Shown here one piece after another: positions 2,703 to 36,800 of a stretch of DNA of 40,994 nt (its first letter is position 1; each line of letters starts with the position of its first letter). This DNA is from a virus. Below the pieces are notes generated by a model, which did not search any database, had not been told where the DNA came from, and saw only the letters and a program-made list of their open reading frames with translations. Where the stretch lies: IMG/VR virus record IMGVR_UViG_3300004457_000067, positions 1 to 40,994 of that record. One strand, 5' to 3'. A program made the position numbers and the translations under genes.

Positions 2703-5700
2703 TTAGAAGCTATCTTTGAGATCTGCTGTACTTTGATTGCCTTTTCTGAGTAATCTATTTGTTAGTTCTTGGTTTCTAACCATTTGCTCAAATAGCTCTT
2801 TGTTGTTGTCGTCTTGCGGTAGAGCGTTACCGTTATCATCTGTGTAGCGAGTTTTATCGCTAGGTGTAGTTGGAGTAATAGCATCTATAGCTGGTGCTTT
2901 TGTAGGAGTATTAGCAGGTTGAGACGCTACTGGTTTTATTAATTTTCCACCAACAAATGTGCCACTAGCAGAACCAGATGACATATCCATTTGATCTCGT
3001 TTTGCAACTAGTTCGGCTCGTCTTCTTTCTGCCTTGGCTTTTGGTGACCTGCCTACCTTACTTGTTACTGCCTCTTTGTCTACCTTAGCTGGAGATGCTT
3101 CAAACTCGTCGTCTGAATAATCCATACTAGAGTAGCTAGTTGTTGTTCCTGCTGTTGGTGCTGTTGCTGTTGTTGGTGCTGTTGTTTCTACTTCTGCTTC
3201 TGCGGGATCTTGTTGTATAGGACCAAATGACTTCATTGCAGCCATTTTCATTAAACTAACTAAACTAATCTCTGCCATTGATGCATTTAATGTGTCAATG
3301 CCTTCTGCCATTTTATCAAATTCGCCTGAGATAGCTGCACCATCTAATTGTGTCATTGCATCATTAAATGTTTCTACAGTAGTACCAAACGAATTCATAT
3401 TTGATGTCATTTCGTTTATTGCTGGAGCCGCGGCTCCTATTTTAGCAAGTTTATCAAATGGTGACTCTGATCCAAACAAACTACCTAACCCGTCTAGTAC
3501 TCCGCTAATTAATCCACCTGCACTAAATGCAGCCATACCGGCTGCTAGTGATACCAATGCTGGACCTAGCAGTAATACATTTTTAGGATCAACTTCGTTG
3601 AGCAGTTTAAAGCTGCCCATTAGCTCAACCATTGCTGGTGCCGCTAAACTTACAGCATAAGCAAACGGAACAAGTGCTAAGCCTAATGCACCAATTGCTA
3701 CTGCACCTGTGATTAATAATGGTGATATAGGTGCTATTAACGCTGCCGCTACACCTAATACACCTAATGCTAATGCTCCTGCGCCAACACCTGCCCAATT
3801 AATATCTGCAAATTGCTGGAATGCTTTACCCGCAACAAACATTGCGCCACCTAATGCCGCTAGTACAACTGTACCTAATAATGCTTTAGGGTTACCTAAT
3901 GCTGATAGTCCTTTACCTAAACCTTTTAATGCACCCCCAACCATATCGCCTAAGCCTTTGCCTAGTGATGCACCTGCTTTACCAACTGACTTAGCAAGGT
4001 TAGAAATTACACTGCCGATGCCCTTTGATAAGTTGTTTAACATATCCCCAATTCCTTTGGAAATATTTTTCATGCCTTGACCGATACTTTTTGTGAGGTT
4101 TCCTGCTTTCTTGCCAACTTTATCCATGGCGCCAACATCTGGAGCATCTTTCTTGCCCATTATTTTGTCTTTGAGCCCACCTGCAATTTTTTTAGCGCCG
4201 CCTGTAATTTTGTCTGCTAATCCACTTAACATTTTAGGCATACCAACACCTAGTGCTTTCATAGATACTAATAGAACACCTGCGGCTCCTGCAACTTTAC
4301 CTATTGTGCTTAAAAGTCCACCACCTGTGAATACTTCAGCAAATTCTTTAATTTTGTCACCCAAGTAAGAAAAAGGTGCTACTATTTTATCAAATGTAGG
4401 AGACAATGTTTTGCCTAACCAATCAAATGGCATTCTAACAGCATCGAATAGAGGACTTAGCATATTGCCAAAGAATGAAAACACACCTGAGATTTTATCA
4501 AAGATTCCCCTCATAAAGTTACCAAACGATGTAAACGGTTTTGTTACCATTTCACCGGCTGTGGCTATTCCATCGCCAACTGCTCTGAACGGTGACATAA
4601 CTAAGTCTACTAGTGCTCCGCCAACAGCACCTACCATTTTGAAAACGCCTACTAACAAGTCCCATCCAAACTTTAATGTGGCTGTAACACCTTCTATTAC
4701 ACCACCTATAAATTTAAGAGGCAACATTGCAATTGATACTGCTGTACTTAATATACCAAATACTGTGCTAACACCGGACACAAAACTCTTAATGCCGTCT
4801 ATGAAGTCAGGGATTTTTGAAATCATCCCTGCAATAAACTCTGCCGCTTTGCCTATCATAGGTATTAAGTTTTCACCTAACTTAGCGCCTAATCCTTTGG
4901 CACCTGCTGTTAATCCTTTAACACCGTCACTTGCGTCTGCAAAAGAAGGAAATATCTTTGCAATTGCTGGGAACAGTGCTTCGCTAATTATGTTTTGAGC
5001 GTTTTTAAATGCTAGAGTTAATTCGCCTGTTTTGCCACCAAGTTTACCTAAGTCGCCTACAGCATCACCTAACCCACCCAAGAAGCCAGTCTTTATGCTT
5101 TCAAATGCACCTGTGATTTCCTTCATTATTCTGGCTAATGTGTTAGTACCTGTTTGTACACCTTCCATGCTAAGGCCGTTGCCCATATCTTTTATCTTTT
5201 TAGCAGCTGCTTCAAACTGTATGATAGCCTTTGCCATACTGCCGGCCTGTGCATCACCTGCTCTGTCAAGTAAGAATACTCTTTGTTTTTCTGCTTTACT
5301 GAGATTACCTAATTGAGAAGTCATGTCTAGAGCCATTTGCTCTGCTTCTTCTTGGCTCAGTGTGCCGTTCTTAATTTGTGTTATATAATCATTCATCGGG
5401 CCTGCTAAACTAGGCAATGCTCTAACATATCCTGTCATCTGATCGCTGAAGCCCATAGCACCACTTGCTGCAGCTTCTGTCATTGCTTGAGCAATCTGGC
5501 CGCCTTCTTCGCCGCCCATGGCTCTCATTGTGCTACCGAAGTCTGTTATACCTGCTATAACTTTGCCTCTTAATTCTTTGTCAAACTTTAACAAACTAGA
5601 AGTAAGTACCGGTGTTTGAGTTATTAATTGGTCTGTAAACGCAACTAAGCTATCAACACTCTCGCCTAATACACTTGCATATTTTTGCTGTGTTTTAATA

Positions 5701-6530
5701 CTGCGAGTAATTTGTTTTTGCATTCTTGCTTGGTTCATGCCGTCAAGCACACCCATTTGTTGTCTTTTTGCTAACTCTGCACCCATACGCTCAACACTGT
5801 CGTCTAAGCTCATGCCTAGTTCTACACCGCTATCGGTTGCGTCCATGAATGATTGGGTTAATCCTACAAACGCTTTCTTATTCATTGTTTGCATGATGCC
5901 ACTCATGTTCTTCATGGTGTTAGCTGCATCGATACCCATGCTACTTAATTCTGCCATAGCACCAGAGGCACTCATGCCACCTTGAGCTAAACTATCTCTG
6001 AATCCGCCTCCAACTTTTGTTAGTTCATTTAACTCGCTGCCTAATCCTACAAAAGAATCAACTAATATACCGCCATACAATACAATTGCGGCTGTTGCAC
6101 CTGTGATTAATGATGTAACTGAATTATACATACCAACAAAGACTTTTTCGCCCATTGCGGCGCCTTTGTTAAATCCATCTAATGAACCTGCAGCTTTATT
6201 TGCTGCATCTGAAATTTTTCCTGCAGATGCAGGAGCATTGTTAGCACCTGGTGCGTTACCAGCTGCTGGTTTAGCTTTTTCTTTTTTAAATTCTTTGCCT
6301 AGATCTTCTGTTGCTTTGTGTAGTTCTTTTTGTTGGTCTAATGTTTTTTGTTGGAATTTCTCAGCATCTTTGGCTGCTTCTTTTGCATAGTCAACTAATT
6401 TTTGCAAACTACCAGACCCAATTCCTTTATTTAAGGCCACAAGTTGTGTAAGCATTGCTTGAGCAGTGCTATCGAGTGCGAAATCCGCTATAATTGCTTC
6501 TTCGTTGTTAGGTAATTGTACCCTTGACAT
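2703..6530 (-). CDS. Tail tape measure protein (gp29 functional equivalent)
   Basis: A 1275-aa protein with the hallmarks of a tail-length tape measure. Residues ~60-100 are a Lys/Glu/Gln-rich coiled coil. A long helical body carries many hydrophobic segments, for example around residues 130-165, 560-600, 750-780 and 870-990, rich in Gly, Ala, Leu and Ile. The last ~180 residues are a Pro/Thr/Ser-rich disordered tail. Repeated motifs of the type FDKI-PF-LG occur at residues ~690-750. Tape measures set tail tube length, fill the tube and exit with the DNA. T4 gp29 is 590 aa, so this one is over twice as long. The start has a good Shine-Dalgarno (GAGAGGA) and a GATAAATA late promoter at 6554-6561. 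The gene is divergent from the gp26-like gene; in many phages the tail-assembly chaperones instead sit directly upstream on the same strand. Confidence 0.82.
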   Translation of the reverse strand: MSRVQLPNNEEAIIADFALDSTAQAMLTQLVALNKGIGSGSLQKLVDYAKEAAKDAEKFQQKTLDQQKELHKATEDLGKEFKKEKAKPAAGNAPGANNAPASAGKISDAANKAAGSLDGFNKGAAMGEKVFVGMYNSVTSLITGATAAIVLYGGILVDSFVGLGSELNELTKVGGGFRDSLAQGGMSASGAMAELSSMGIDAANTMKNMSGIMQTMNKKAFVGLTQSFMDATDSGVELGMSLDDSVERMGAELAKRQQMGVLDGMNQARMQKQITRSIKTQQKYASVLGESVDSLVAFTDQLITQTPVLTSSLLKFDKELRGKVIAGITDFGSTMRAMGGEEGGQIAQAMTEAAASGAMGFSDQMTGYVRALPSLAGPMNDYITQIKNGTLSQEEAEQMALDMTSQLGNLSKAEKQRVFLLDRAGDAQAGSMAKAIIQFEAAAKKIKDMGNGLSMEGVQTGTNTLARIMKEITGAFESIKTGFLGGLGDAVGDLGKLGGKTGELTLAFKNAQNIISEALFPAIAKIFPSFADASDGVKGLTAGAKGLGAKLGENLIPMIGKAAEFIAGMISKIPDFIDGIKSFVSGVSTVFGILSTAVSIAMLPLKFIGGVIEGVTATLKFGWDLLVGVFKMVGAVGGALVDLVMSPFRAVGDGIATAGEMVTKPFTSFGNFMRGIFDKISGVFSFFGNMLSPLFDAVRMPFDWLGKTLSPTFDKIVAPFSYLGDKIKEFAEVFTGGGLLSTIGKVAGAAGVLLVSMKALGVGMPKMLSGLADKITGGAKKIAGGLKDKIMGKKDAPDVGAMDKVGKKAGNLTKSIGQGMKNISKGIGDMLNNLSKGIGSVISNLAKSVGKAGASLGKGLGDMVGGALKGLGKGLSALGNPKALLGTVVLAALGGAMFVAGKAFQQFADINWAGVGAGALALGVLGVAAALIAPISPLLITGAVAIGALGLALVPFAYAVSLAAPAMVELMGSFKLLNEVDPKNVLLLGPALVSLAAGMAAFSAGGLISGVLDGLGSLFGSESPFDKLAKIGAAAPAINEMTSNMNSFGTTVETFNDAMTQLDGAAISGEFDKMAEGIDTLNASMAEISLVSLMKMAAMKSFGPIQQDPAEAEVETTAPTTATAPTAGTTTSYSSMDYSDDEFEASPAKVDKEAVTSKVGRSPKAKAERRRAELVAKRDQMDMSSGSASGTFVGGKLIKPVASQPANTPTKAPAIDAITPTTPSDKTRYTDDNGNALPQDDNNKELFEQMVRNQELTNRLLRKGNQSTADLKDSF

Positions 6531-6690: not shown

Positions 6691-7560
6691 ATGACAAACA
6701 AACACAATCCATTAAGTTCGCATTTTAGAGCACCTAAAATTTTTGTACCTATTCCAAGTGCTGGACAGTTTTATACAGACGAAGTATTAGAGATGCCTGA
6801 AACGCAAGAACTTCCAATTTTTGCTATGACAGCAAAAGACGAAATGATTATGAAAAATCCTGATGCACTACTAAACGGCGAAGCAGTGACCCAGGTAATA
6901 CAAAGTTGCGTACCTAACGTTAAAGATCCAAGATCAATGTTAAGTAGCGATGTTGACGTATTGTTAGTTGCTATTCAAGGTGCAACGTATGGCGATGATG
7001 TAGAAGTAACTGCTGAATGCCCTAACTGTAAAGAAGAACAGCAAGGTGTTGCAAGTGTTGAAACAGCAATAGGAACTATGGGTTCTATTGAGGAAAGATA
7101 TAGTGTCGAGCATAACGGCTTAGAAATTGAGATTCGTCCGTTCACTTATGCAAGTACAATACAAGCAGGTATTACAAATTTTCAAAGTACTAGGAGTTTA
7201 CAAGCATTAGCAGATGTTCCAGATGAAATGGAAAGACTAAGTTTGTTTAATAACAACTTTAAACAGATTGCTGATCTAAACTTTAGTTTAATTGTAGACA
7301 GTATTGCTAGTATTTCTTATACCGACGAAGAAGGTGAAAAACAATCAGTTACAGATAGAAATCATATCAAAGAGTTTTTGGACAATGCAGAACAATCAAT
7401 TGGTAAAAAGATTGAACAAAAAATTACCGAACTAAACAGTATTGGTATTAACCATGAAATGAAACTACAGTGTGAGAAGTGCCTAGACGATGCAGGTGAG
7501 CCATTAGTGTTCGACAGCAAAGTTAACTTTGATCCTGTAAATTTTTTCACAGCTTCCTAG
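6691..7560 (+). CDS. 26: gp26-family baseplate hub / tail assembly protein (T4_baseplate family), zero-frame product
   Basis: A 289-aa protein that reads as the T4 gp26 baseplate-hub family, with the N-terminal FVPIPSAGQFY block and the central LVAIQGATYGD block. Two CxxC pairs, Cys110/Cys113 (ECPNC) and Cys261/Cys264 (CEKC), could form one zinc site. T4 gp26 (208 aa) is needed for hub assembly. From memory it was not placed in the solved T4 baseplate structure, so a chaperone-like role is possible. The zero-frame stop lies just after a run AAATTTTTTC, and the -1 frame is open across it into the next ORF, so two products are likely: this short form and a longer fusion. The gene is divergent from the tape measure gene. 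The start was chosen by homology-like N terminus and an AGGA upstream. Confidence 0.8.
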   Translation: MTNKHNPLSSHFRAPKIFVPIPSAGQFYTDEVLEMPETQELPIFAMTAKDEMIMKNPDALLNGEAVTQVIQSCVPNVKDPRSMLSSDVDVLLVAIQGATYGDDVEVTAECPNCKEEQQGVASVETAIGTMGSIEERYSVEHNGLEIEIRPFTYASTIQAGITNFQSTRSLQALADVPDEMERLSLFNNNFKQIADLNFSLIVDSIASISYTDEEGEKQSVTDRNHIKEFLDNAEQSIGKKIEQKITELNSIGINHEMKLQCEKCLDDAGEPLVFDSKVNFDPVNFFTAS

Positions 7561-7603
7561 CACAGTCTGAACCCGAAGACATAGTGGCGTACCTAGGTAA
7601 GCT
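7539..7603 (+). promoter_or_regulatory. Probable programmed -1 ribosomal frameshift signal
   Basis: Zero-frame codons read AAT TTT TTC, so the heptamer A-AAT-TTT (7539-7545) fits X-XXY-YYZ; the overlapping T-TTT-TTC (7542-7548) also fits. Five bases after the first heptamer begins a 10-bp stem, AGCTTCCTAG (7551-7560) pairing with CTAGG-T-AAGCT (7593-7603) with one bulged T; its loop contains a smaller GTCT/AGAC stem. The zero-frame stop TAG is inside the 5' arm. All three parts of a classical signal are present at standard spacing. Efficiency cannot be told from sequence. Confidence 0.72.
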
Positions 7604-7784
7604 CAAGAATGATCAAATTGCCCTAAACAAAAATATTGCTGAATTAGTAATATACAGTGAAGGTGCAATTTCATGGTCAGAGGCGTGGTTTGTACCCCCA
7701 ATGGATCGCGACCTATTAGTAACAACTCTTAACAAGTATAATCAAGCCAAATCTGGCCAGGCCGGTAACAACGAACTTCTTTAG
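7545..7784 (+). CDS. Frameshift extension of the gp26-like protein
   Basis: The -1 frame contributes 79 residues after slippage, giving a fusion of about 364 aa. The segment begins FHSFLAQSEPEDIVAYLG and continues into a helical region with ISWSEAWF and a short polar tail. No ATG exists in its 5' part. The only candidate independent start is the GTG at 7584, which has no convincing ribosome site. The frame is already open from 7533, inside the gp26 gene, and the sequence around the junction is protein-like on both sides. This is the arrangement of lambda G/GT, in which -1 frameshifting makes the tail-assembly chaperone carrying the tape-measure-binding T domain. By analogy the extension may bind the tape measure or hub. 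The analogy is inference. Confidence 0.7.
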   Translation, partial: FHSFLAQSEPEDIVAYLGKLKNDQIALNKNIAELVIYSEGAISWSEAWFVPPMDRDLLVTTLNKYNQAKSGQAGNNELL

Positions 7785-7803: not shown

Positions 7804-7983
7804 TTATATCCCATGTCTATTAAATAGATCAGCTGCATTACATGCTGACTGACTCCTGCAATTCCTGATATTATTCTGCCAAGTTACTTCGTCAGGCATC
7901 CAATTGAATTCAGGGCTAGGTGTTGTGTAAGTAGTTGAGTTACATCCTGTTAGAATTAACCCTAATAGTATTAGTCGTTTCAT
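7804..7983 (-). CDS. Small phage lipoprotein (59 aa)
   Basis: The protein starts MKRLILLGLILTGCNSTTYT. A two-residue basic head, a hydrophobic core and the lipobox LTGC (residues 11-14) make a clear class II signal peptide. The predicted mature protein is ~46 residues, starting at a lipidated Cys14 and containing two more cysteines (Cys42 and Cys48). No Lys/Arg stretch or membrane helix follows. A Shine-Dalgarno AGAGGA precedes the ATG at 7983 and a TTGATC-N16-TATAGT promoter lies upstream. Short phage lipoproteins include Rz1-type outer spanins and receptor-masking proteins such as T5 Llp; nothing seen here decides between these. It lacks the Pro richness typical of Rz1. The gene is apparently transcribed on its own, after a terminator for the gp55 operon. 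Confidence 0.75.
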   Translation of the reverse strand: MKRLILLGLILTGCNSTTYTTPSPEFNWMPDEVTWQNNIRNCRSQSACNAADLFNRHGI

Positions 7984-9017: not shown

Positions 9018-9803
9018 TTATCTACTGCTGATGCTATGTACGAACTTATATCGGCTAATCTTTTCTAAGTCAGGTTTTTGTGTAAGTTTACCTAACGCAA
9101 TATGTCCTATTGCTAACTTTGGGTCGTCAATTGCGTGTGGCAGTTTGTGTGCAACTTGCATACACCAACGCTTTACATGTTTTGTAACTGCTTTTGCATC
9201 AACACACTGGTCCGGTGCAAACCATGCAAGTAAATCGCTTTTAACTATGCTGGTGGGAATTATATGTTCTTGTGGAACATCTACATCATTGTCGTAGCAT
9301 ATTTCCATTATGTGTTTACCTACATGTGGGTAGTTCATGTACAAATGATTATCTAGTCTAGTAGGTGAGAACAATTCGTAATCACTGTCCTCTAGTGGCT
9401 GGGGTGCAGGTTCGCCAGTTGCTGTACTAATTAAGAAGCGTCTATTTTTATTGCCTGTTATATCTTCTAAATGATGTAAGTGATAGTTAAACATACTGAG
9501 CCACTCTCGCAACTCACCTGTCTCGGCGTGTACATGATCTGGAAAGTTTTCGTGTAGTCTATTTAGATCATCACTGCCTGTGAATATTTCAGGCTTGATG
9601 CGTTGGATGTTGTCTATGCTGTGATTTAAGTTTGCTTGTACTTCTGCTATTGTTTCGCCCCAGTTATAAAACTGAGTACGACTTACAAACTCGTAATTGT
9701 TATCTTTGTAGTTGTTCCAAATTACTTCAGCAACACGGTTGTTAAATAGTTCGTATGTGAGTGTGTACTCTGCATCACGGCCTAGGTGTATGTCAATCCA
9801 CAT
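9018..9803 (-). CDS. Conserved-looking hypothetical protein after gp46 (261 aa)
   Basis: A 261-aa soluble protein with no signal peptide or membrane segment; I do not recognise the family. It is rich in His, Trp, Tyr and Asn. A His-rich stretch around residues 88-115 (HVHAETGELREW and NYHLHHLED) could bind metal, but no known active-site pattern is apparent. The start ATG lies inside the last codons of gp46, an 11-base overlap, so translation is coupled. The position in the operon with the gp46/gp47 nuclease suggests a role in recombination or replication, but that is only context. The GIY-YIG gene follows after 9 bases. Confidence 0.75.
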   Translation of the reverse strand: MWIDIHLGRDAEYTLTYELFNNRVAEVIWNNYKDNNYEFVSRTQFYNWGETIAEVQANLNHSIDNIQRIKPEIFTGSDDLNRLHENFPDHVHAETGELREWLSMFNYHLHHLEDITGNKNRRFLISTATGEPAPQPLEDSDYELFSPTRLDNHLYMNYPHVGKHIMEICYDNDVDVPQEHIIPTSIVKSDLLAWFAPDQCVDAKAVTKHVKRWCMQVAHKLPHAIDDPKLAIGHIALGKLTQKPDLEKISRYKFVHSISSR

Positions 9804-11556
9804 ATTCGGTGTCAGTGTTGTACATAGTGAATCCGCCTTCCTTGACCACTGTTAGTACATTATTCACTCTACCTACTAGTTCTTCTTTGTGTGAGATAAG
9901 GAAAATGTTCTTACCTTGTTCCCTATTCATCTTCTTAAGGATGGCTAAGGCGTTCTCTACACCCATTGTATCCATGCCTGAGTCTATTAATTCATCGATA
10001 CACATTAGGTTCATAGGTGCATTTAAACTCTCATACATGTCTCTAAATGCCCAAGATAAGCCCAAAATAAGTCGATTACGTTCGCCTCTACTTAGATTAT
10101 CAAAGTCTAAGTCGCGTCCGTACTCTGTTATTTCGACGTTTAAATCGTTCGCAAATTTTACATCATGCGGCAAACCTAACTTATCTAAGTACCATGCTAA
10201 CCTATGATTTAAGTACGCAATGTTCTGATCAATAATCTTTTTACGGATAAAACTATCTTTGCTTGTTAGCAATTTGTACAAGAACTCTTGGTGCTCTTTT
10301 AAGAATGTAAGTTCGTTGATTAAGTCAAAACTAACTTCCTGTAAGCCTGTTTCTCTAAGTAAGTCTATTTGATCAATGTACGGATTTGGTTCATCTAATT
10401 TAGTTTCGTATTGTGATGCTAACGACTCTAAATTATGTTTGTGTTCGTATGCCTCTTCGGCAGTTTTATAAAATGTAGTTAGTGTTGAAGGAACAACAAT
10501 GTCTTCGAGTGCTTCTGTTAGCTCAGTTAGTTTACCTTCAGTAGTGGAAGTGTATTCTTTCTCTTCTACTATTTTGCTCTCTAACTCTTTAGTATACGAT
10601 TCGTGTGTGCTTAAATGTGCTGTGCCTTGTTCACATGTAGGGCATACACCTTCTTGTGCTTTTACTAAATTAGCTTCTAACTCTATAAGCCTATCGTTAC
10701 TACGATTATAACTTGTTGTTAAACTTTTTAATTCTTTTGTGATAGTGTTAACTAGATCTTGTTCCTCTTTGGCTTTAACATTTTGTTTGAAAGATGCAAT
10801 TTCAGTCTCAACATCAAGTTCACCTAGTGTAGTAATTGCTGTTTCTAAGTCTTTTACTTTAGTGTTGTGTGTGGCGTCCCATGCTTTTTTACGACTTTCA
10901 ATCTCAGAAATGTTTTTCTCTATACGCTCGTTGCTGTCTTTAACTGCATTAATTCTTAATTCTTCTTCCTTAATACTATCGCGAGTAAACTTAGTTTTCT
11001 CTTTGAGCTGTTCTGCCTTAGCACTTAGATCAGTAATACCTAATAACTGCTCGATCATGTCTCGCTGATCGTTTGTTTTCATACTGAGGAAAGGTTCGCT
11101 GTATGTGTTTAGTGCAACTAAATGCTTAAACATATTATGCGGAAAGCCGATAATCTTTTCAATCTCTTTTTGTGTCTCTCTACTATCGCCTTGTTGTTCT
11201 TCTTTTACAGTATCTTCGCCGTTAACTAAAAACTTTAACACATTAGGCCTGCGGCCACGTTCGATACGATACTCAACACCCTTAGATTCAAACTCTACAG
11301 TTGTCATCATGCCTTTAGCATTTGTTTTATTGATTAAGTTATCACGTCGAATGTTAGTAAGTGCTTCACCATACAATGCATAACTTAATGCATTAATAAT
11401 AGTAGTCTTACCTGTGCCGTTTCTGCTACCATCACCGCCCATGTCTAAGTTATGACCTAGAACAAGAGTAAGTTGACAGTTATCAAAATTAACGGCCTGT
11501 GTGTTGTTACCCACACTCATAAAGTTACGGGCTGATACATTTTTAATCTTTAGCAT
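9793..11556 (-). CDS. 46: Recombination nuclease ATPase subunit gp46 (Rad50/SbcC family)
   Basis: A 587-aa SMC-like ATPase. The Walker A motif is SRNGTGKTT (Lys50). Residues ~180-440 are coiled coil interrupted by a zinc hook CPTC (305-308). The ABC signature LSRGE is at 488-492, Walker B LMCIDE at 517-522 and the H-loop histidine at 556. With gp47 it forms the Mre11-Rad50-like complex that resects DNA ends for recombination-dependent replication and breaks down host DNA in T4-like phages. T4 gp46 is 560 aa, so the length is normal. The ATG lies just past the gp47 stop, with no room for an intergenic signal, and the 3' end overlaps the next gene by 11 bases. All ATPase motifs are intact, so the protein should be active. 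Confidence 0.96.
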   Translation of the reverse strand: MLKIKNVSARNFMSVGNNTQAVNFDNCQLTLVLGHNLDMGGDGSRNGTGKTTIINALSYALYGEALTNIRRDNLINKTNAKGMMTTVEFESKGVEYRIERGRRPNVLKFLVNGEDTVKEEQQGDSRETQKEIEKIIGFPHNMFKHLVALNTYSEPFLSMKTNDQRDMIEQLLGITDLSAKAEQLKEKTKFTRDSIKEEELRINAVKDSNERIEKNISEIESRKKAWDATHNTKVKDLETAITTLGELDVETEIASFKQNVKAKEEQDLVNTITKELKSLTTSYNRSNDRLIELEANLVKAQEGVCPTCEQGTAHLSTHESYTKELESKIVEEKEYTSTTEGKLTELTEALEDIVVPSTLTTFYKTAEEAYEHKHNLESLASQYETKLDEPNPYIDQIDLLRETGLQEVSFDLINELTFLKEHQEFLYKLLTSKDSFIRKKIIDQNIAYLNHRLAWYLDKLGLPHDVKFANDLNVEITEYGRDLDFDNLSRGERNRLILGLSWAFRDMYESLNAPMNLMCIDELIDSGMDTMGVENALAILKKMNREQGKNIFLISHKEELVGRVNNVLTVVKEGGFTMYNTDTEYVD

Positions 11557-11557
11557 A

Positions 11558-12574
11558 CTAAATTTCTAACTCGTTATAAATGTCAATTAATTTTTGTCTT
11601 TCGATTGTGCTTGATTCAATTGTGTCTAATTGCTGTAGTACTATTTGATCTACGCTTTCAAACTTTATTTCACTACCTTCAAATTCCTGTTCCTCTTCTT
11701 TGATAGGAATAAGTTGTAGTTCTCTTACACCATATTGTTCAGCAAACTTTTCTTTAATAAAAGTTGCTTCTTCGTATGATATACCAATATCTAATTTTAC
11801 ACGAGCATAGGTGTACTTGTCAAGTAAATTTTCGTGATTGTCTAATAGTTGTTTAAGAGTAAACACTCTGTACTTAGGGCACTCAGTCCAGTTTACATAT
11901 ATAGGCTCTTCTCCCCAAGTAAGGAACATAGCACCACGCTCATCGTCTTGTGCATCTGCATAGTTATGTGGGAAAGCATTACCTAAGTAATGTATGTTAT
12001 TTTTAAATTGTCTTTTGTGAAAGTGACCACTAAACACTAGTTCTGGTCCACTAAGCATTTTATCATTGATACCACCATGGTCCGGCATCTCTACCATTGC
12101 GTTCATTTTAAAGTAAGGTAATTCAAAATGCCCAAACATGTACTTACACTTCATCTTAGAAACAGTTTTGTAATCGTCGCCTACTAACCATGGAACAATA
12201 GCAACATCATCTTTTTCAAACATGTCGTCTACCATAACAAAGTTAGATAAGTCACGAGCAAACTCGATACTGTTCATATCTCTTTTGTCTCTATAGTAGA
12301 GGTCGTGATTACCTGTTATAAAATATACTGTTTCAAAGTTGTCATTTAACTTTTTAAGATCTTGTACAGTTGCATTCATTGTTGCAACATTAATACTTGA
12401 TCTATGATGCATCCAGTCGCCTAAGAAAATACATGTTTCTGCATTCCTTGCTTTTGCTTCTGCAATAAACCAATCTATATATCGGTGGCAGTCATCTAAG
12501 TGTAGACGACTATTTTGTTTTAGCCCGTAATGTATATCCGTAAAACAGGCCGCTGTTTTAAACAACTGACTCAT
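11558..12574 (-). CDS. 47: Recombination nuclease gp47 (Mre11/SbcD family)
   Basis: A 338-aa calcineurin-like phosphoesterase. The metal-binding motifs are all present in order: Asp13-x-His15 (FTDIHYG), GD-x-x-H (LGDWMHH, Asp53), GNHD (88-91), GHF (148-150) and GHFH (183-186). The C-terminal ~120 residues form the capping and gp46-binding region. T4 gp47 is 339 aa, nearly the same length. It is the nuclease partner of the downstream gp46 ATPase. Its ATG lies 6 bases after the gp55 stop, and its own stop is one base from the gp46 start, so gp55, gp47 and gp46 are made from one message and probably coupled. Confidence 0.96.
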   Translation of the reverse strand: MSQLFKTAACFTDIHYGLKQNSRLHLDDCHRYIDWFIAEAKARNAETCIFLGDWMHHRSSINVATMNATVQDLKKLNDNFETVYFITGNHDLYYRDKRDMNSIEFARDLSNFVMVDDMFEKDDVAIVPWLVGDDYKTVSKMKCKYMFGHFELPYFKMNAMVEMPDHGGINDKMLSGPELVFSGHFHKRQFKNNIHYLGNAFPHNYADAQDDERGAMFLTWGEEPIYVNWTECPKYRVFTLKQLLDNHENLLDKYTYARVKLDIGISYEEATFIKEKFAEQYGVRELQLIPIKEEEQEFEGSEIKFESVDQIVLQQLDTIESSTIERQKLIDIYNELEI

Positions 12575-24854: not shown

Positions 24855-27800
24855 ATGTCAGATAAAATCGTAAAACAGTTACCAGTAGTACTGCAAACGT
24901 CAGCAATAAGAAATTTCTTTGAGGCTACGGTTGAACAACTATACAGTGAGGCTAACACAGTTCCGTTAGCAGGCTTTATTGGTAAAAAAACAGGTGATGA
25001 TACTAAGTTGGAAGGAGCATTTATTAAAGAAAATAATGCTGACAGACGCCAATATAATTTATCTCCTGCTGTAAATAATATTAACCCTGTCACAGGCGAT
25101 AGTGAAAACTTAATTTTCTATGATGAGTTCATTGATACATTAAATGTTTACGGTGTAAATACTAGCAATCATAATAAACTTTTTGGTAGCAGATACAGAT
25201 CTTTTGTACCACCGATTGATATTGATAAGTTTGTAAACTATCAAGAATACTTTTGGTACCCAGCAGGCATTAGCACAACTTTTATTACCTCAACAGAATC
25301 TGCTCCTATTAATTTAGATGAAGATGTATTAGGCAAAAAATTATTTACTGTAGGCAATACAACATTGCGTAATGGCATGACAGTAAACTTTACAGACAAC
25401 TCTTATACTATCCCAGCTAATACTTCTACACAGCGAGTAAAAGCAGGTGTTGAGTACCTAGTACAAGGTGTAGGCGAAAGCATCAGGCTAGTTGAAAAGA
25501 GTATTACAGATAGCACAGAGTATGGTGGAGCCCAATTATCGGCTAAAGATTATATTGTACAAGAGCGTGGTGCTGTAAATAAAAACGCATGGTCAAGGGT
25601 AAACCATTGGTATCACAGAGATAACTTTATTGAGGCTGGTGATGAATTGCCAAGTAAAGAGTATCGTGCAAAAAGACCAATATTAGAATTTAGTAACAAC
25701 TTAGAGTTATTTAATCAAGGTACTACCAGTTACGGCGAAGCAACTGTAAATGTTACTGGTATTTTTAAAACTGATGTCGAAGCACTAACAAGTAAAACAA
25801 TTGATACTAGAGAATTAATTGATGGAGACATTTTATTATTCTTAAACGAATCAAAAGAAAATAAAAAGTACTTGTACACGGTTAGCGGAATAGGCACTGG
25901 TATTATGCTAACACCTACTAGCAGTACACCTATTGCAGTTGATCAAACAGTAACAATAGCACAAGGTAATGTTTTTAAAGGTATTGACTATCTGTACAAC
26001 GGAACAGACTATGTTAATGCTCAGAGGAAAATAAAAACTAACCAAGCACCACTGTTTGAATTATACGATGATGCTGGAAACAAACTAAGCCATTCGGGTC
26101 TTTATAACAACAGTGATTTTACTGGTAGTCCAATTTTTGGATATAAAGAAAACACAGGCGCCAAAGATATCGAGTTAGGATTTTCTTTAACTTATACTCC
26201 GTACAAATCTGCTAGTGAAATAACATTTGAAAACTTTATTCATACTAATAGAACAACATATATTCCTTTTGGTACTAGTACTGCTAAGACAATATTAGGT
26301 ACTTACTATTACAAACTATTAAAAGATACCCCAGAGTATCATTCTGCATGGAAACAAAGTCCAGCAAGAAACGAACAAAAAATTATTACCACTCATTATA
26401 TCACGCAACTTGTGGTAGACGATAAAACACTAGTATACAATATTGGTGCAACACCGGATGTGTTATCATCTACTCCAAGTGGATATGATATACTAGTAAA
26501 AGTTAATGGTGCTATTGTATCAGACTATGCTTACACTGCACCAGCAGATATTAAATTTAATACGTTTACATTTAACCCTGGTGATATAATTGATATAGAA
26601 GTAGGAAGTGATTCAGGTATATCTAAAATTACAGATAGCAGATATGAAATACCGTTGAGCTGGAAAGCAAATCCATTTAACAATGAAATTGAAATTATTG
26701 CTGAACCCGATTACATGTCTCATTTCAAAAGATATATTGAAAGACAAGATGGGTTAACAGGTAATGCATTAGGTTCGAACAACTTTTCTAACACAGCAAA
26801 AGACACTGTACATGCTAAAGACATTGTACAAACAGATCAGGATTTGATTGTTGCAGCTTTTGCATTAGATGATCAACCTCATAATTTAGTTGACGGATTA
26901 CGATTTGCTGGAAGAGAGTACGAAAAGTACAGAGCAAGATTAGTAAAAGAAATTCAAGGGTATTACGACAAATTTGACACAGCTAATCTTAGTAAAGAAT
27001 ATATACTAGAACAAGTACTACGCAACCTAATTTCTTTTAGTATAGGTAAAAATGTTTTTGGCACAACTTATATTTTGCCGTTTGGAGACAACTATTTAAA
27101 GCAAGAATTTGATGTAGCAGATATTAATTCAACAGTTTATACACTTAATGATTATTCAGACTTAGATGAAATTACTAATAGTTTATTAGTTTATCATATA
27201 GATAGCTCAACTGGCGTCCAGTCATTATTAACGGTTGGAAAAGATTATACTATTTCAACTACAAATCCTATTACTGTAAACGTTACTAAATCATTATCAT
27301 TGGCTGATACTATTGTATCTAAGTTATATGATAAAGATAGAGACAGTGCTGAATGTCCACCTACTCCAAGTACAATGGGGATATATCCTTTATACACACC
27401 GTGTGTAGAAACAGATAATAGTTTTGAAACTCCAATGCAATTAATAGTAGGACATGACGGCAGTAAAACATTACTTAAAGGTGATGTTAGGGATGACGTA
27501 CTATTAGAATTTGAAACAAGATTATATAACTCAACAGCACAGCAGTTTAGATCAACTGATAGTTTACCTAAGTTAAGTGTAGGAGATGTTAGATCAGGAG
27601 CATTTAGAACAACTAATCAATCAGCAAGAGAATACGCTGACTTATTAAGAAACAGTTTTACAAATTGGGCTAAAGTATCTGATGTTGATCATTCAACAAA
27701 TGAATTTTACGATGCTGCTAAAACAACAACATGGAACTACAGAGGCAGTAATGATTTACCAGGACACTGGAAAGGCTGGTTTGAATATTATTACGATACA

Positions 27801-30800
27801 GTAAGACCTCATACACACCCGTGGGAAATGTTAGGTTTTAAATATAAGCCATCATATTGGGATTCACAATACGGTACAAACTTTACTAAGTCAAACGAAG
27901 CAATGTGGAAAGACTTACAGGAAGGTATTATACGTTCGGGCGATAGAGAAAACTTTACTTCTGGACAATATTTAAATGATAATCCATGGAGAAGAGTTGG
28001 CTTATTAGATTTATTACCAGTTGATTTTACTAACGTATTATTAACACCAGGACAAATTACTAGTACTGGTAGCACATCAAGAGTTGAAACATTTACAAAC
28101 GCTCGTCCTAGTAATACTTTAGTAAGTGATGTATTTGTAGATGTAACAGGTACAGGCGGACAGCCTAACGGCATTAATGTAAGTTATGGTTCAGTAGAAG
28201 CATTGAGAGTTTTATTTGATGCATTTGATTTAGGTAATGTTGCCACTAAGGCTCAAGCAGGAACATTTTGGGATTACGATGGTACAGTTGGCGGAGCAAG
28301 TTCTAGCACTCAGTTTGCGACAGGGTTTGCAGAAGGCTTTGACGGCCTTGAGACACCTTACATTTTTGTTAACAATATAACAACAAGAAAAAATTATCAA
28401 CTATATAACTACGATATTGTTAATTTATCTGATGCTGGTGTACTTTTACAAGAAACAAATACAGCGGTAACAAGTTATACTATTGCAATTACTGCAAACG
28501 GAACACCTCTAAATAATCCTACTAGCACTAAATCATGGAACACTGAAAACGAATGGTACTATACTAGAACATACAGAAACGAAATTGCCGAAGGTGCAGT
28601 TTATACTATTACTCCTGCAAGTGCTGGTCTTACAGCATGGGACACAGCATCTCACTCACCAATAGTAGGGTGGTCTTTTGATGGACTACCTATTTACGGA
28701 CCATATGGGTATGCTCATTATAATAATAATGGCCAAGTGTCAGACAGCACTATTACAAATATCAAGAGTGCATTTGAACTAAAAACAGGTCAGAGAACAA
28801 CAGGACCAATGGGGTCTCACACTGGTGAGTTTGTACAAGACTATACTTGGAATACGGCGTTAGGCGGAATATCAGGATATGTAGGACATAGTAGTAAAGG
28901 TAACATAGCAAAATATAACATGCGTTGGGGAGTTACACCAGAGAGTCCAACTACACCAATTTACTTTTATGTTGCAACACAAGACGACACAGGCGCTCCT
29001 ATGTTCCCTTATGCAATAGGCGGAACTGAAGATAGTACTAATACTTACCAACCACATTACTATTCTACTCCTGTATCAGCAAATACAAACAATACAGGAA
29101 CTACAGTAGGATCTGGTGGTATTATAGCATTATCAAGTTCTTTAGTTGTTACTCCTAGCAGTAATGCAGATAAGATTCAAGCACCATGGAGATTTGGTGA
29201 CGGTGCTCCTGTAGAGAATGCATGGAAGTACAGTGTAGGATATCCTTTTGCAGTTGCAGAAGCAAAACTATTATCACAACCAGGAAGGTTTATAACACTG
29301 TTCTCAGATCCATTGCGTAACACATCACCTGTACTTGATGCAACTAAAATTATTAATAAAGTAGATAGAACACCATTTGACTTTAGATCAGAAGATCATT
29401 TCTGTGTACACGGTGCTGTAAACAAAGCAGGCAATATTATTACTAATGTTGGCTATTCACAATTTATACACAGTTGGTTAGCATATCAAAATTTAAATAC
29501 AACTACAGATTATGCTGACAAACTTAATAACGTTAATATAAAACTTGCACACAGAGTTGCAGGATTTACAGATAAAGATACATTAATAGTTAAAGCAGAT
29601 CAACAAGGACTAACGTCTACAAGTAACAGTTTAATTATACCAGAGGAGAATGTAGACGTTGTTGTACATGCTTCGCCATATAAAAATAGAAATTTCTATT
29701 CAGGTCTTAGCATACAAAAAACTGCTAATGGATATAAAATTAAAGGCTTTGATAAAAATGCTGGATACTTTAATGTTTTAAGAAGGGACTTTAACGGTAA
29801 CACAACCTCAGTTGAGGTAGGTGGAGAAGCAGTTTCCTTTATTAACTGGGAACCAGCAACATCATATCAAAAGAATACAATTGTTGCATACAATAATGCT
29901 TACTACCAGGCACCAACACTAGTTACAGGCACTCCAGTATTTACTTCATCTTTTTGGAAAAGGCTTCCTGGGTTACCTCAAACCGGTGCAATTAAGGGTG
30001 TACTTTATTTAGATAGTTTACCATTTATTGACAGAGTTGATTATAGCACAGAATATACAACGTTCCAGAAAGTTGTGGATGTTATTGTAGGCCTAGGTGC
30101 ATACCAAGAATCAATTGGCTTTACGTTTGGCGAGTTTGATACAGAGATAGCAGATGTTAGAAACTGGAACTATGTTGTTAAGCAATTCTTATTCTGGGTA
30201 GCAGGCGGCTGGGAAACTAATAATACACTTGAACTAAGTCCATTGGCAACAACAGTTAGATTTACTAGTAAAACTGGAATGGTTGCTGAAATGAAGCGAG
30301 TAGACAAAAACCAGTTTACACTTATTGATCAAGATGGTAGAGCAATACAACCGTCTGAGTGCGAAATAGTTAGACTAGGAAACAGTATAGAAATAACACC
30401 ACCAGCAGGAATACAAATTTATGGTGCGTTGTTGTTTACTAAAGAAATTGAACATGCATTAGTTTTTGATAATATAACAGCGTTCAACGACATATTGTTT
30501 GACCCAGTTTACAGTCAGGGGCAAAGAAGATTTAAAATTAAAGGTAAGCGAACAGCAAACTGGAGCGGCTTATTTAGTTCAGAAGGTTTTATAATTCAAG
30601 ATAATGAGCTAAGACCTAACTTAGATAACATGGCACAAAGTTTAGGCCGTTATCACGAACTAGGATTTATTCCAGTTGAGAAACAAATTTATGAACAAGC
30701 TCGTGGTTTGTTCGGATACCAAGAAAGAGAATATCTAAACAACTTAGAATTAGAAGATGATGATCAGTTTGAATTCTATAAAGGTATGCTACAAAGTAAA

Positions 30801-33800
30801 GGCACACTACCTAGTTTAGGTAAACTTTCTAAAAGTAAAAACATTATACAAGGTGAAACAACTGTATATGACGAGTGGGCAATTAAAGTTGGCGACTTCG
30901 GTGATTTAGAAAACGATCAAAGCATTGAACTTAAATTAGACAGAAGTGATGTTAAACATGATCCTCAGTTAATTACTTTAGCCTTCCCTGAAGATACTAC
31001 TGGTACTATCGAAAACATTGAAATAATCTCAACAGAACATTTATACCACGATGTACCAACTATTGAAATTGCTATGCCGGCTACTGCTGATAAGAATAGA
31101 ACACAGGCAACAGCAAAAGCATACTTAGGCTCAGACGGCACGTTATCATCTATTGACGTTATATATAGCGGCACAGGATATACAACAGCATCCGCACGTT
31201 TAAATGTAGTTGCAGGTAATATATCTATTGCTAATGTTAACACACAGTTTAGTACAAGTTCTACAACAAGTACAGCACCTGTAGCAGACTCAGACATTGC
31301 AGGATTGACATTAACTAATTTAAGAATCACAGCAGTTGGCGCTGGTGCAGGTAATGCAAACATTGGCCCTGTTGATTTAAATGTAAGCAGTATTACTAGT
31401 TTAGCAAACATTGCTACACTTGTCAACGAAAACGCAACTATTAATTCTCATATTACTGCAAATGTAGTTGAAAGTGAGATCCAAGATCCAAACTGGGAAG
31501 GAATAGGAACAGACCCTACTGCCGCTAATGCTATTATTAGACAAAGTATTTTAACATTACATGGCACAGACTTTATATTAACAGAACAAGGTAGTACACT
31601 ATCTGGTCTTAACTTAACAGCAGGAAGATATCAACCTACACAGCGATATGCAATTGCTTCAGTTGGCAACCATCCTACAAAAGGCACAGGTGCAACTACT
31701 GCAAGTGATATCACTGTTAAAGTAAACAACGAAGAAGTTGATTCGTCTTACTGGACATATGATGAAGGTGACAGACAAATCATACCTTTTAAAGTTACTG
31801 GTTCAGGGGCTACTGCTGGTAATCAAAATGCAGACAGAAATACAGTTATAAGAGGAAAGGTTGATGTTCCTTTAAACGGTACTATCAGTAGCGACAACAT
31901 AACACAGATTGATAATATTTCATATCCTTATGTAAATGTTTTTGTTGACGGTTTTGAATTAACTAACTCTCCAATAGAACAAAAATTTGATATTACATCA
32001 TCTACCTTAACAATATATAATGTACAAGATCTACCTACAGGCGGTATTACAAATGACGCAAATGTTTATGTAATAGAACAACCTACAATTAATTTTGAGC
32101 CATCGTACTTTGATGACAAGCCAGATTCTACACTTAATATTAAGGTAGCAACACGTGATAATATTGCTATTACAACAGGTATAAAAAGACTACACGAAAT
32201 TACACCAGATATTAAAACTGATGATACAATATTAATTGACATAGACGACACTTCGAGATTCCTTAAAAAGCCAATTGGCGAGAGGCAAGAAAATTTATGG
32301 CCTACAACTAAGTTTGTAGATTACACTGGTATAACTGATGCAAAGTATACAAGCATACCAAATGCTGGGTACGTTAATAGTTCAACTGTAGACTATAGCA
32401 GTTTTGATATTCCTAGTATTGGCGATATGTTTAGAGGAGAAATTTTAATACATCCTCAAAAAGATGATCTAGTCCATGTTGCTATTTCTGAAAACGAAGA
32501 CTGGAATGTTTATAAGTTTAAAGAATTTGTTAGTGCTGTGCAGTTTGTTGAACAAGAAGAAAATGATTTAACAGCACATTTATACACAACAGATTCATTG
32601 TTTAATAAAACAACAGATCAAAACCAAATTGCAAGTGGTATTGACTCAACAAGATTCTTAGATTATCACATAGCAATTAAAGATGCAATAATAGATAATA
32701 AATTTGTTGTATGGGTTAACGAGCAAGTAGTAGACCAAAAGCAAGTACGTTTAAGTAATATTACACCAGTTGCAATGATGGAATCAACGGTTAGTAGTAT
32801 TGGACCAAATTTTGTAAAACCGATATCTAATATTACACCTGGCATAAGCAGTTTTGCAATGGCAGAAGCAACTGCCGCTGATGCGTCAGGGACAGTAACA
32901 ATTACTACAGATTTACAGATGCTGGATAGTGATGTTGGCGGCACAGTAGGGTTTGCTGGTGCTAACACTACAGCACTATTTGGAAATAATTATAATGTTT
33001 CTAATGTCAATCTTACAAATGGAACATTTACAATTAATGAACCAGCACAAGGATCATCAATCGACGGTGCTAACCTTATTGCTAGATTCTTTAATAGAAC
33101 AACAATCACAGCAACCGATCACGGATTAGTAGCAGGCGAGATGGTAAAGATTGTTGCTGGTATGTACAGTGGACAATGGATAGTTGAAGGTGCATCATCT
33201 AATACATTTATAATTGATACTCCATATGTAACAACAGGTCCTACAACAGGTAATGTATTAACTTCAGAATTTAAAATTACCACAGACGGTGATCATACAC
33301 TGAGTAATGATTACGCAGGTAAAAATATTGCTATACATAATGCAACGCAAAGATTTTATAACGGTGTATACAGTGTTAAAAATGTACCTAGTGCAAATAC
33401 TATATTAGTATGGAACAGTTTTCCTTTTGCAGATGTAGCAAACGTTAATGTAAATGATGGCACTGCTAATTGTATTGTAACAACACTAGACCACGACAAA
33501 ATTAGTCTAAATAATTCTAATATTAAAATTGACAACATAAACAGTTTAGATGGAATGATTGATTCATTGAATGATGCAATTCAAGCTCGTGCAGCATATG
33601 TATCGTATCAAGGAAGTTTCTCAATGAGTATTCCGATGTTAAGATATCCAATGAAAGGACCTGGTGGACTCACAACAAATCAAATTGGTGGTTCGTTGCC
33701 TCGAGTAACAAACTTAGGAAATCTCAGTAAGAAAAACTTAACAGTTACGGGTATAAGTACAGTAAATCCACAACGTACTGCTAAGATTGGTTTTAATAAA

Positions 33801-36800
33801 AATAGACGCGGCGTACCAATAAAAAGAAGATCTAGACCAAGAACAATCGCTAGTGGTGGTGCAGTATCTAATAGAACGAAAACATTAAATACAACACCAT
33901 TTAGCCCAGTTATTCCATCCGCGACCATGCAAAATATTATTGGTAGTGGAATTGGAACTGCCGTTTTCCCACAAGGCGGCGCTGGAATGGGCGGCTCAGG
34001 CAAACCAAATTCGAGTATAGGTGCTAGAAATTCTCTTACTTCATTTTTAGGATTTGGACATGGACCAATTAAAGCACCTAGTGCAAGTCCACAGCCTTTG
34101 CCATCAGGACCCGGAGCAATGTTTAATAGGTTACTAACAGCAACCAACATTGTAAGAAACGGCGGCAACCCAAAAAGTTCTAATCATATTAAGCCTAACA
34201 ATAATACTGGTGCCCCGATACTTACTGGAACAGCAGTAAGCATTGCACCTTCTCCGTGCGGCGAGCTAATTATAGTACAACCTCCACGTCCAGACCAGGT
34301 ACCTAATCAACCTGGTAACGGATTAGACGATAATTTTAGTACAGCGTATGAAACAGTGGTAAATGGTAACGTATTGACAAATGACTCTGCAGGACTTATC
34401 ACTGAAGGTGCATTTATAGTAGGAAATGAATACACTATTGTGACTACAGGTGATACTGACTTTACAACAATTGGTGCAGCAGATAATAATCCTGGTACTG
34501 TATTTACATCAACAGGCACTGGACTACAAGGTGGAACAGGCGAAGCTAGATTCCCGTTAACAGCAACTAATGCGTCAACACCAGCATACGGCACAGTGTC
34601 TTTATCAAGTAATGGAGATTTTACATACACTCCTAATAGCGGATATAGCGGAACTGATGTATGGTATTACGACTCAAATGATGGACACGGCGGAATCAAC
34701 AAACAAAAAGTATCTATCATTGTTGGTAAAAAAGCGCCACCAACACCACCAACACCTATGGTTTTTGAAAAGTGCGAATTCCAGGAACAGTCTACTACAG
34801 CATCAAATACAGGGCACACTGGCAAAAATGATTTTTGGCACTATAGTATTCCAGTTGCAGGTAAAGTAAAAATTATAATGGACATGGATGGTGCCGCTGA
34901 TAGATTAGAAGCAATACAGACACATACTTCTCGAGGACAAAGTGGTAGAACAGTAGCATCAACTAACCAAGGTCAAACTAGAAAAGCAACCCAGGCAGAA
35001 AAAGATAAAATAACTTCTTCAAGAGGCTTAACTACTACTAATACTGGTTATCAAGGACCTTACGGTAACTATCAATATCAATTAAGTGATTTCACTCAGG
35101 TAGGTGACAAGATCAGTCACTGTGGTGTATTGGAGTTTGATTTTGATCCAAGTGCTGCTGGTTCGTATTTAACTATTAAAATAGGTAAAGACAGTAGTGT
35201 TTACAGGTATCTAATATGTTATCCAACAACAACAAATACAGGTACTCCTGTTGGACCTAGTACTCCTGCAGGAAATTATCAAGGAGGCAGCCAGGCTGCT
35301 CCAAACTATCGGTATCCACAGACGCCTATATATCAGCCTAGTATACAACCTACTACAAAGCCAAAAACTCAAGCAGGCTTTGTTAATATTAATATCGGAG
35401 GCGGATACGGTAGCGGATTTAGTGGAGGCGGCTGGAACAAGACAACTACTTATGGTTCCGGTATTGGATATGTACACAACTACGGTGGATTTAGTGCTGC
35501 TCCAATGGCAGGCTACACTCATGTTCCTAGTGTGTTTAAGAAAACAGTAAAAACTGTAAACCCACAAAACATAGGAAGGTCTGCAGACTTAACTAGTAAT
35601 AGATATGTAAACAATACTTTACAACGTGTTTCCGGCGGCAGAGTAATTCCTTTAAGTGCTCCTCCTGGAAAACCTATTCCAATTCCTAATAGAGGAATTA
35701 ATGGACTTAATTTAAGTCAGTACCCGGGTTCGAGTCATTTGGCAAACTCCGGTACAATGAAAAATATTTCTGTAATACATCAACTATTACAAATAGCAAG
35801 TAGTAATTATGACTTACAAAATCTTAGTAGCCCAAGCTCGTCGAGTGAATTTAGTGCAGATGGCTTCGGCGGTAGTTCAACAGATGGCTTCGGCGGTAGT
35901 TCAACACTGGGAGCCACCGAAGATATCTTTAATCCAGGAAGTTCAACAGACGGTAGTTCAAGTTTTACCCCAGGTGGAAAAACAAAGGTATTTACATCTA
36001 CACCTGCAGGCCCACCAACTATTATACCAGGCGGCGTTGTTTTTGACTCTTCAACATTTAATAGAGGATTAGACCCAGATTCGTTCTCAAGAAGATTAAC
36101 ACCACCAGAGACACTTCTCGATGATGACAGCCCAATTGCAATTGAATGTGATTGGACAGTAAACCCCTGTATAGTTTTAACACCTAAAATCAAAGTTGTT
36201 AACCCAGATGGAACATATGATTATATTCCTGCTGGTCCAGACGTCCGGGCATATATTACTAGACCTACTCCTAAAATACTTTTCACGGAAGCAGATGCAG
36301 AAGGTTTAACACCAGGCGACCAATTTATTATTAATAATAAGTCTATTACAATTCCTGGAAAGCCTAGTGCATTTTTAAAAGAAATTGAATGCTCCGGCGG
36401 CTTTGGCTATACAACATCAGTAACTTCCTCTAACGGTCAAGCAGCAGTAGCAGTAAGTAGTTGTTCAGTCGCGCCAATTACCCTTAGGGACGGATGTAGA
36501 GGCGGAGTATATAAAGAAGTATTAGATTTCCACATTGTGAGAAGTTTCCAACAACTAGGATTAGAAGCAAACGCATATATTTCAGAATCTGATGCATCCG
36601 GCGTTACAACTACAACAACAGGTTCACATCCTGTAGGGCTTACTGCCACTGTTAGCTCTGGAGCAGTAAGTACAACTACTACTTCAACTGGTAATGTAAT
36701 CACAGAAACACCTACTACAACAAGCACTACTACCTTTACAGGCGGAAGTGGATATGTAGTAGGCGATAGATTAAGAGTGATTGGCGGTACCCCAGTAGCA

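Follow-up and report, generated by a model that had tools for sequence, protein, structure and literature searches.

Probable -1 frameshift at the end of a gp26-like gene of an uncultured marine phage, predicted to yield a short and a long tail-assembly chaperone

Organization of the gp26-like locus

We analyzed a stretch of 40,994 bases from a metagenomic virus record, further called the window. The gp26-like gene occupies positions 6691-7560 of the plus strand and encodes a short product of 289 aa (TAC-N), which matched the T4_baseplate family (PF12322, E 6e-18) and phrog_150, baseplate hub (E 4e-19). The isolates nearest to this product were Phosso, PA5oct, Atu_ph07, GAP32, 121Q and RaK2-type jumbo phages, with 25-38% identity. 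The gene adjoins a divergent neighbour on the minus strand (2703-6530), which encodes a tape measure protein of 1275 aa (phrog_1535, tail length tape measure, E 2.7e-8).

By direct reading, the 3' end of the gp26-like gene (7537-7560) is GTA AAT TTT TTC ACA GCT TCC TAG, where the zero-frame stop TAG (7558-7560) ends the short product. Two overlapping slippery heptamers are present there, A_AAT_TTT at 7539-7545 and T_TTT_TTC at 7542-7548. The -1 frame has a TGA at 7530-7532, is open from 7533 and stops at 7782-7784. Its extension beyond the slip (TAC-C, 7545-7784) comprises 79 aa and a stop and would be accessible via frameshift only, so that the fusion product would have 285 + 79 = 364 aa. The sole start codon of the -1 frame ahead of an ATG at -1 codon 54 is GTG 7584, and we found no Shine-Dalgarno-like element upstream of it. 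A possible stimulatory stem-loop spans 7551-7603; its 10-bp stem begins 5 nt past A_AAT_TTT, pairs 7551-7560 with 7593-7603, leaves 7598 as a bulge and carries the zero-frame stop within the 5' arm. A preliminary description of this DNA had reported both heptamers, the bulged stem, the open -1 frame with a GTG devoid of a ribosome site, the lengths of 364 against 289 aa and the position beside the tape measure gene, and we recovered all of these features.

Several other parts of the window were recorded. Just downstream of the gp26-like gene, on the minus strand (7804-7983), there is an ORF of 59 aa which begins with MKRLILLGLILTGCNS and has the look of a small lipoprotein. Two adjoining minus-strand ORFs of 587 and 338 aa (9793-12574) are a candidate recombination endonuclease pair gp46/gp47, judging by sequence appearance and jumbo-phage synteny. 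A single open frame on the plus strand (24855-40994) encodes at least 5380 aa and runs past the end of the window; a YHYH domain (PF14240, E 6.5e-13) was identified in it, along with an Ig domain of the Big_9/cadherin-like type, and its product is a putative virion protein of giant size. The whole window gave no hits in Rfam and tRNA scans.

Conservation of the slippery site

In six of its larger genes, the window has in-frame heptamers of the XXXYYYZ type at 10 of 3050 codons (0.33%); the tape measure gene, with 1276 codons, has a single one. Since they are rare, an overlapping pair inside the last eight codons of a gene is unusual. It is conservation, rather than the rarity of heptamers, that decides the case for the slip site. 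The preliminary description had proposed that relatives be aligned and inspected for both the slippery site and the stem. We collected 40 relatives from IMG/VR, and the 39 which include the junction were scored.

The sequence GTAAATTTTT(T/C)CA(C/T)nGCTTC(C/T)TA(G/A) was kept in all 39 relatives, and so was the -1 extension, with 79-81 codons counted from the heptamer. The zero-frame stop was TAG in 37 and TAA in two. A_AAT_TTT was present throughout, so the slippery site is conserved; T_TTT_TTC was destroyed in 10 of these 39 relatives, where TTT is followed by the codon TCC, and therefore only A_AAT_TTT is usable there. Both heptamers belong to H_HHU_UUY, a class that ranks with the most efficient ones in E. 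coli (PMC4066793).

The codons GTA, AAT and TTT were identical in 28/28 distinct loci, while the same-codon probabilities expected from the entire gp26-like gene were 0.42, 0.64 and 0.70, respectively. Codons 282-288, at the slip, form the most synonymously conserved 7-codon window in this gene. In frame 0, positions 7539 and 7542 are synonymous, and they also lie outside the reading of the extension; that they are nevertheless invariant finds its natural explanation in slippage.

Selection on the extension and search for a start codon

Only in the -1 frame does the extension evolve as protein, and it does so already ahead of the first start codon. Over 65 codons past the zero-frame stop, pN/pS was 0.45 in the -1 frame and 0.96 and 1.11 in the other frames; for the first 8 codons past the stop, upstream of GTG 7584, the values were 0.48 as compared with 0.96 and 1.47. 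In 33 distinct loci of the window's family, the -1 ORF has no ATG among its initial 33 codons, nor did we find a start codon common to the family. GTG at the start position occurred only in some members of the window's clade and was not conserved in the sister clade.

The structure of the extension was predicted to be helical (pLDDT 79 with alignment; the model without alignment was poor, pLDDT 65). With the extension as query, Foldseek found no match in BFVD or PDB at E <= 0.001.

Putative stimulatory elements

The 65-nt fold at the junction had an energy of -16.3 kcal/mol (z -2.0), and 5 of 200 shuffles were as good. In the window's clade the stem described above (stem I) was paired in 96.7% of cells with no covariation, and it is unproven for this reason. 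RNAalifold did not find it in the sister clade, and we rejected a family-wide stem. Stem I is thus clade-specific: the conservation of the stem, which the preliminary description had proposed to test, held within the window's own clade and failed in the sister clade.

Another stem (stem II) was spotted by eye in the sister clade, where the conserved 5' arm GCTTC can pair with GAAGC approximately 52 nt downstream. It was defined in loci L012-L036 (alignment A3, columns 19-25 with 78-84) and has two covarying pairs. Changes on both sides occurred in 10 cells, and none of 500 shuffles matched on three measures, a comparison in which kinship alone may exceed shuffles.

We also recorded Shine-Dalgarno-like motifs located 6-15 nt before the T run. 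They were present in 73 of 81 cyanophage-type loci, in 1 of 28 loci of the window's family and in none of 13 jumbo isolates. In the cyanophage-type homologues (L060-L139) the motif is GAGG, approximately 10 nt upstream of the T run. Since it coincides with conserved Glu-Gly codons, which it overlaps, this GAGG may, but need not, play a stimulatory role.

Homologous sites in jumbo phages and cyanophages

In 13/13 jumbo-phage isolates the gp26 homologue ends with T_TTT_TTC, or with T_TTT_TTT in RAS14 and XacN1. The -1 ORF of these phages opens at or before the heptamer and extends approximately 72-81 aa beyond it; some records present it as a separate hypothetical gene, and in others it is unannotated. 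T_TTT_TTC was found in 79/79 cyanophage-type loci that include the stop, 10-13 nt ahead of it. The cyanophage-type extension carries the annotation gp51 and matched phrog_634, 'baseplate hub assembly catalyst' (E 1.7e-27). Two distant isolates deviate at the site, Cygsa01 (AGC ATT TTC) and RL2RES (GAT TTT TTG), so distant relatives do not all have the exact heptamer.

We compared the extensions with HHalign. The probability was 98.8% between window and jumbo extensions, a weak 51% between jumbo and cyanophage extensions, and 95.5% between cyanophage extensions and the C-terminus of T4 gp51; the direct comparison of the window extension with the gp51 C-terminus was also weak (15%). The chain from window to jumbo phages, cyanophages and T4, together with the common position, supports a possible homology of the window extension to the gp51 C-terminus. 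Each of 11 complete slip-bearing isolate genomes contained one PF12322 gene, while T4 and 44RR contained two each. The window and its close relatives, which are fragments only, had one copy each.

Proposed explanation and alternatives

These sequence comparisons make it very probable that a -1 frameshift in the gp26-like gene yields a short and a long tail-assembly chaperone, similarly to lambda G/GT. We base this on the conservation of the slip site, the selection in the -1 frame and the single PF12322 copy as opposed to two in T4 and 44RR. The majority of ribosomes would terminate at TAG 7558-7560 and release the 289-aa gp26-like TAC-N. A minority would slip by -1 on A_AAT_TTT (tRNA-Asn and tRNA-Phe) or on T_TTT_TTC (two tRNA-Phe) and continue to 7784. 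The resulting 364-aa TAC-NC would carry an additional helical domain of approximately 79 aa that probably corresponds to the C-terminal region of T4 gp51, and the mixture of both forms may aid assembly of the neighbouring tape measure protein, as do lambda gpG and gpGT. We infer that the frameshift occurs, how often it does so, that a stem stimulates it and that the products act on the tape measure protein. The preliminary description had suggested both a fusion of the gp26-like gene with the next ORF and a chaperone pair like lambda G/GT; the former is supported by the 39/39 conservation, the frozen synonymous sites and the selection in the -1 frame, the latter by the gp26/gp51 family membership and the one PF12322 copy per complete slip-bearing genome.

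The downstream ORF could instead be a separate gene with its own start at GTG 7584; its translation would then begin, by re-initiation or coupling, once the gp26 stop has been reached. Databases frequently annotate the extension as a hypothetical gene of its own, many cyanophage homologues have an ATG a few codons inside it, and within the window's clade a GTG is repeatedly seen at -1 codon 15, occasionally preceded by GAGG or AGGAG. However, the family of the window offers neither an early ATG nor a GTG conserved in the sister clade, protein selection acts on the -1 frame already upstream of the GTG, and the heptamer bases, unneeded for initiation, are invariant at synonymous zero-frame positions. 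The start-codon and selection tests thus disfavour an own start, and we consider this reading improbable.

RNA polymerase can slip on long homopolymers, and the run AAATTTTTT is A/T rich, so a fraction of the mRNAs might carry an indel produced during transcription. The run has only 6 T, however, and just 5 T in the ten relatives with TTT TCC, where the -1 ORF is still kept; such slippage is therefore unlikely. Moreover, the preserved bases, A as the third base of GTA and T as the third base of AAT, are those of a heptamer for tandem tRNA slip, and we regard transcript slippage as very improbable. It is harder still to believe that the -1 ORF is a sequencing error, a pseudogene remnant or a chance open frame, with the 289-aa protein alone being made. 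The source is a metagenomic record, and short open frames arise by chance, but 39/39 relatives share the junction, as do phages that were isolated and sequenced, and the selection on the -1 frame is of protein type. A sequencing error at the junction is rejected by this conservation.

Beyond the programmed frameshift itself, we propose, tentatively and at somewhat less than even chances, that all these loci have one homologous recoding site with swapped signal parts. The heptamer would have moved between T_TTT_TTC and A_AAT_TTT via the overlapping double site, and the stimulator would depend on the lineage, being GAGG approximately 10 nt upstream in cyanophages, one stem in the window's clade and another in the sister clade, while T4 uses two genes. 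If true, this exchange could show how a recoding signal is rebuilt with its output kept. The family also forms a natural series in which the slip site and the stimulator vary and the function is constant.

The results also concern annotation. They indicate that the small 'hypothetical' ORFs beside jumbo-phage gp26, and the cyanophage 'gp51', are C-terminal halves of a frameshifted protein. Annotation pipelines are misleading when they present the extension as a separate gene, or gp26 as a part of the baseplate hub. An uncultured marine phage lineage gains a firm annotation of its tail-assembly chaperone.

Comparison with known systems

Phage lambda produces a short chaperone, G, and a -1 frameshifted long one, GT, beside the tape measure gene, and its slip heptamer is G_GGA_AAG. 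The locus in the window differs from it in the heptamer and in the tape measure gene, which is divergent here and downstream in lambda; the likeness proposed here is a functional one.

In T4 both gp26 and gp51 are PF12322 proteins; gp26 corresponds to the short form and gp51, with its longer C-terminus, the long one. T4 differs in that they are encoded by two separate genes with no slip site, and 44RR likewise has two PF12322 genes without the site. Both T4 proteins are classed as hub-assembly chaperones in a review of T4 (PMC3004832). According to PMC10274946, some T4-like phages do without frameshifting and have a short gene plus a long fusion gene instead.

In the TAC locus of Pseudomonas phage Adele and of other Vandenendeviridae/Andersonviridae, the -1 frameshift takes place on the poly-T motif with which TAC-N ends, and the downstream ORF is mostly annotated as a separate gene (PMC12846349). 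That locus belongs to other phage families and has an invariant GTTTTT (PMC12846349).

The closest parallel is the TAC-N/TAC-NC pair of T4-like phages. PMC12846349 describes poly-T sequences as established signals for a -1 shift in the TAC-N genes of T4-like phages, and -1 frameshifting at the T4-like tail-assembly chaperone, together with the two-gene arrangement of T4, is credited, as cited there and in PMC10274946, to Vladimirov, Gautam and Davidson (2022, Virology 566:9-15). As far as these sources describe it, the T4-like pair shares with the window the PF12322 gp26/gp51 family, a poly-T slip near the end of TAC-N and a TAC-C in the -1 frame; the lineage of the window differs by the overlapping A_AAT_TTT, which is the sole usable heptamer in some members. 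In a limited literature search we found no earlier description of a double site A_AAT_TTT/T_TTT_TTC in which T_TTT_TTC can be lost, or of lineage-specific stimulators at the slip site. Since the T4-like case was published by Vladimirov et al., to judge from these citations, the frameshift proposed for the window is of a known kind, to which the window adds a new member from an uncultured marine lineage, nearest to the jumbo phages.
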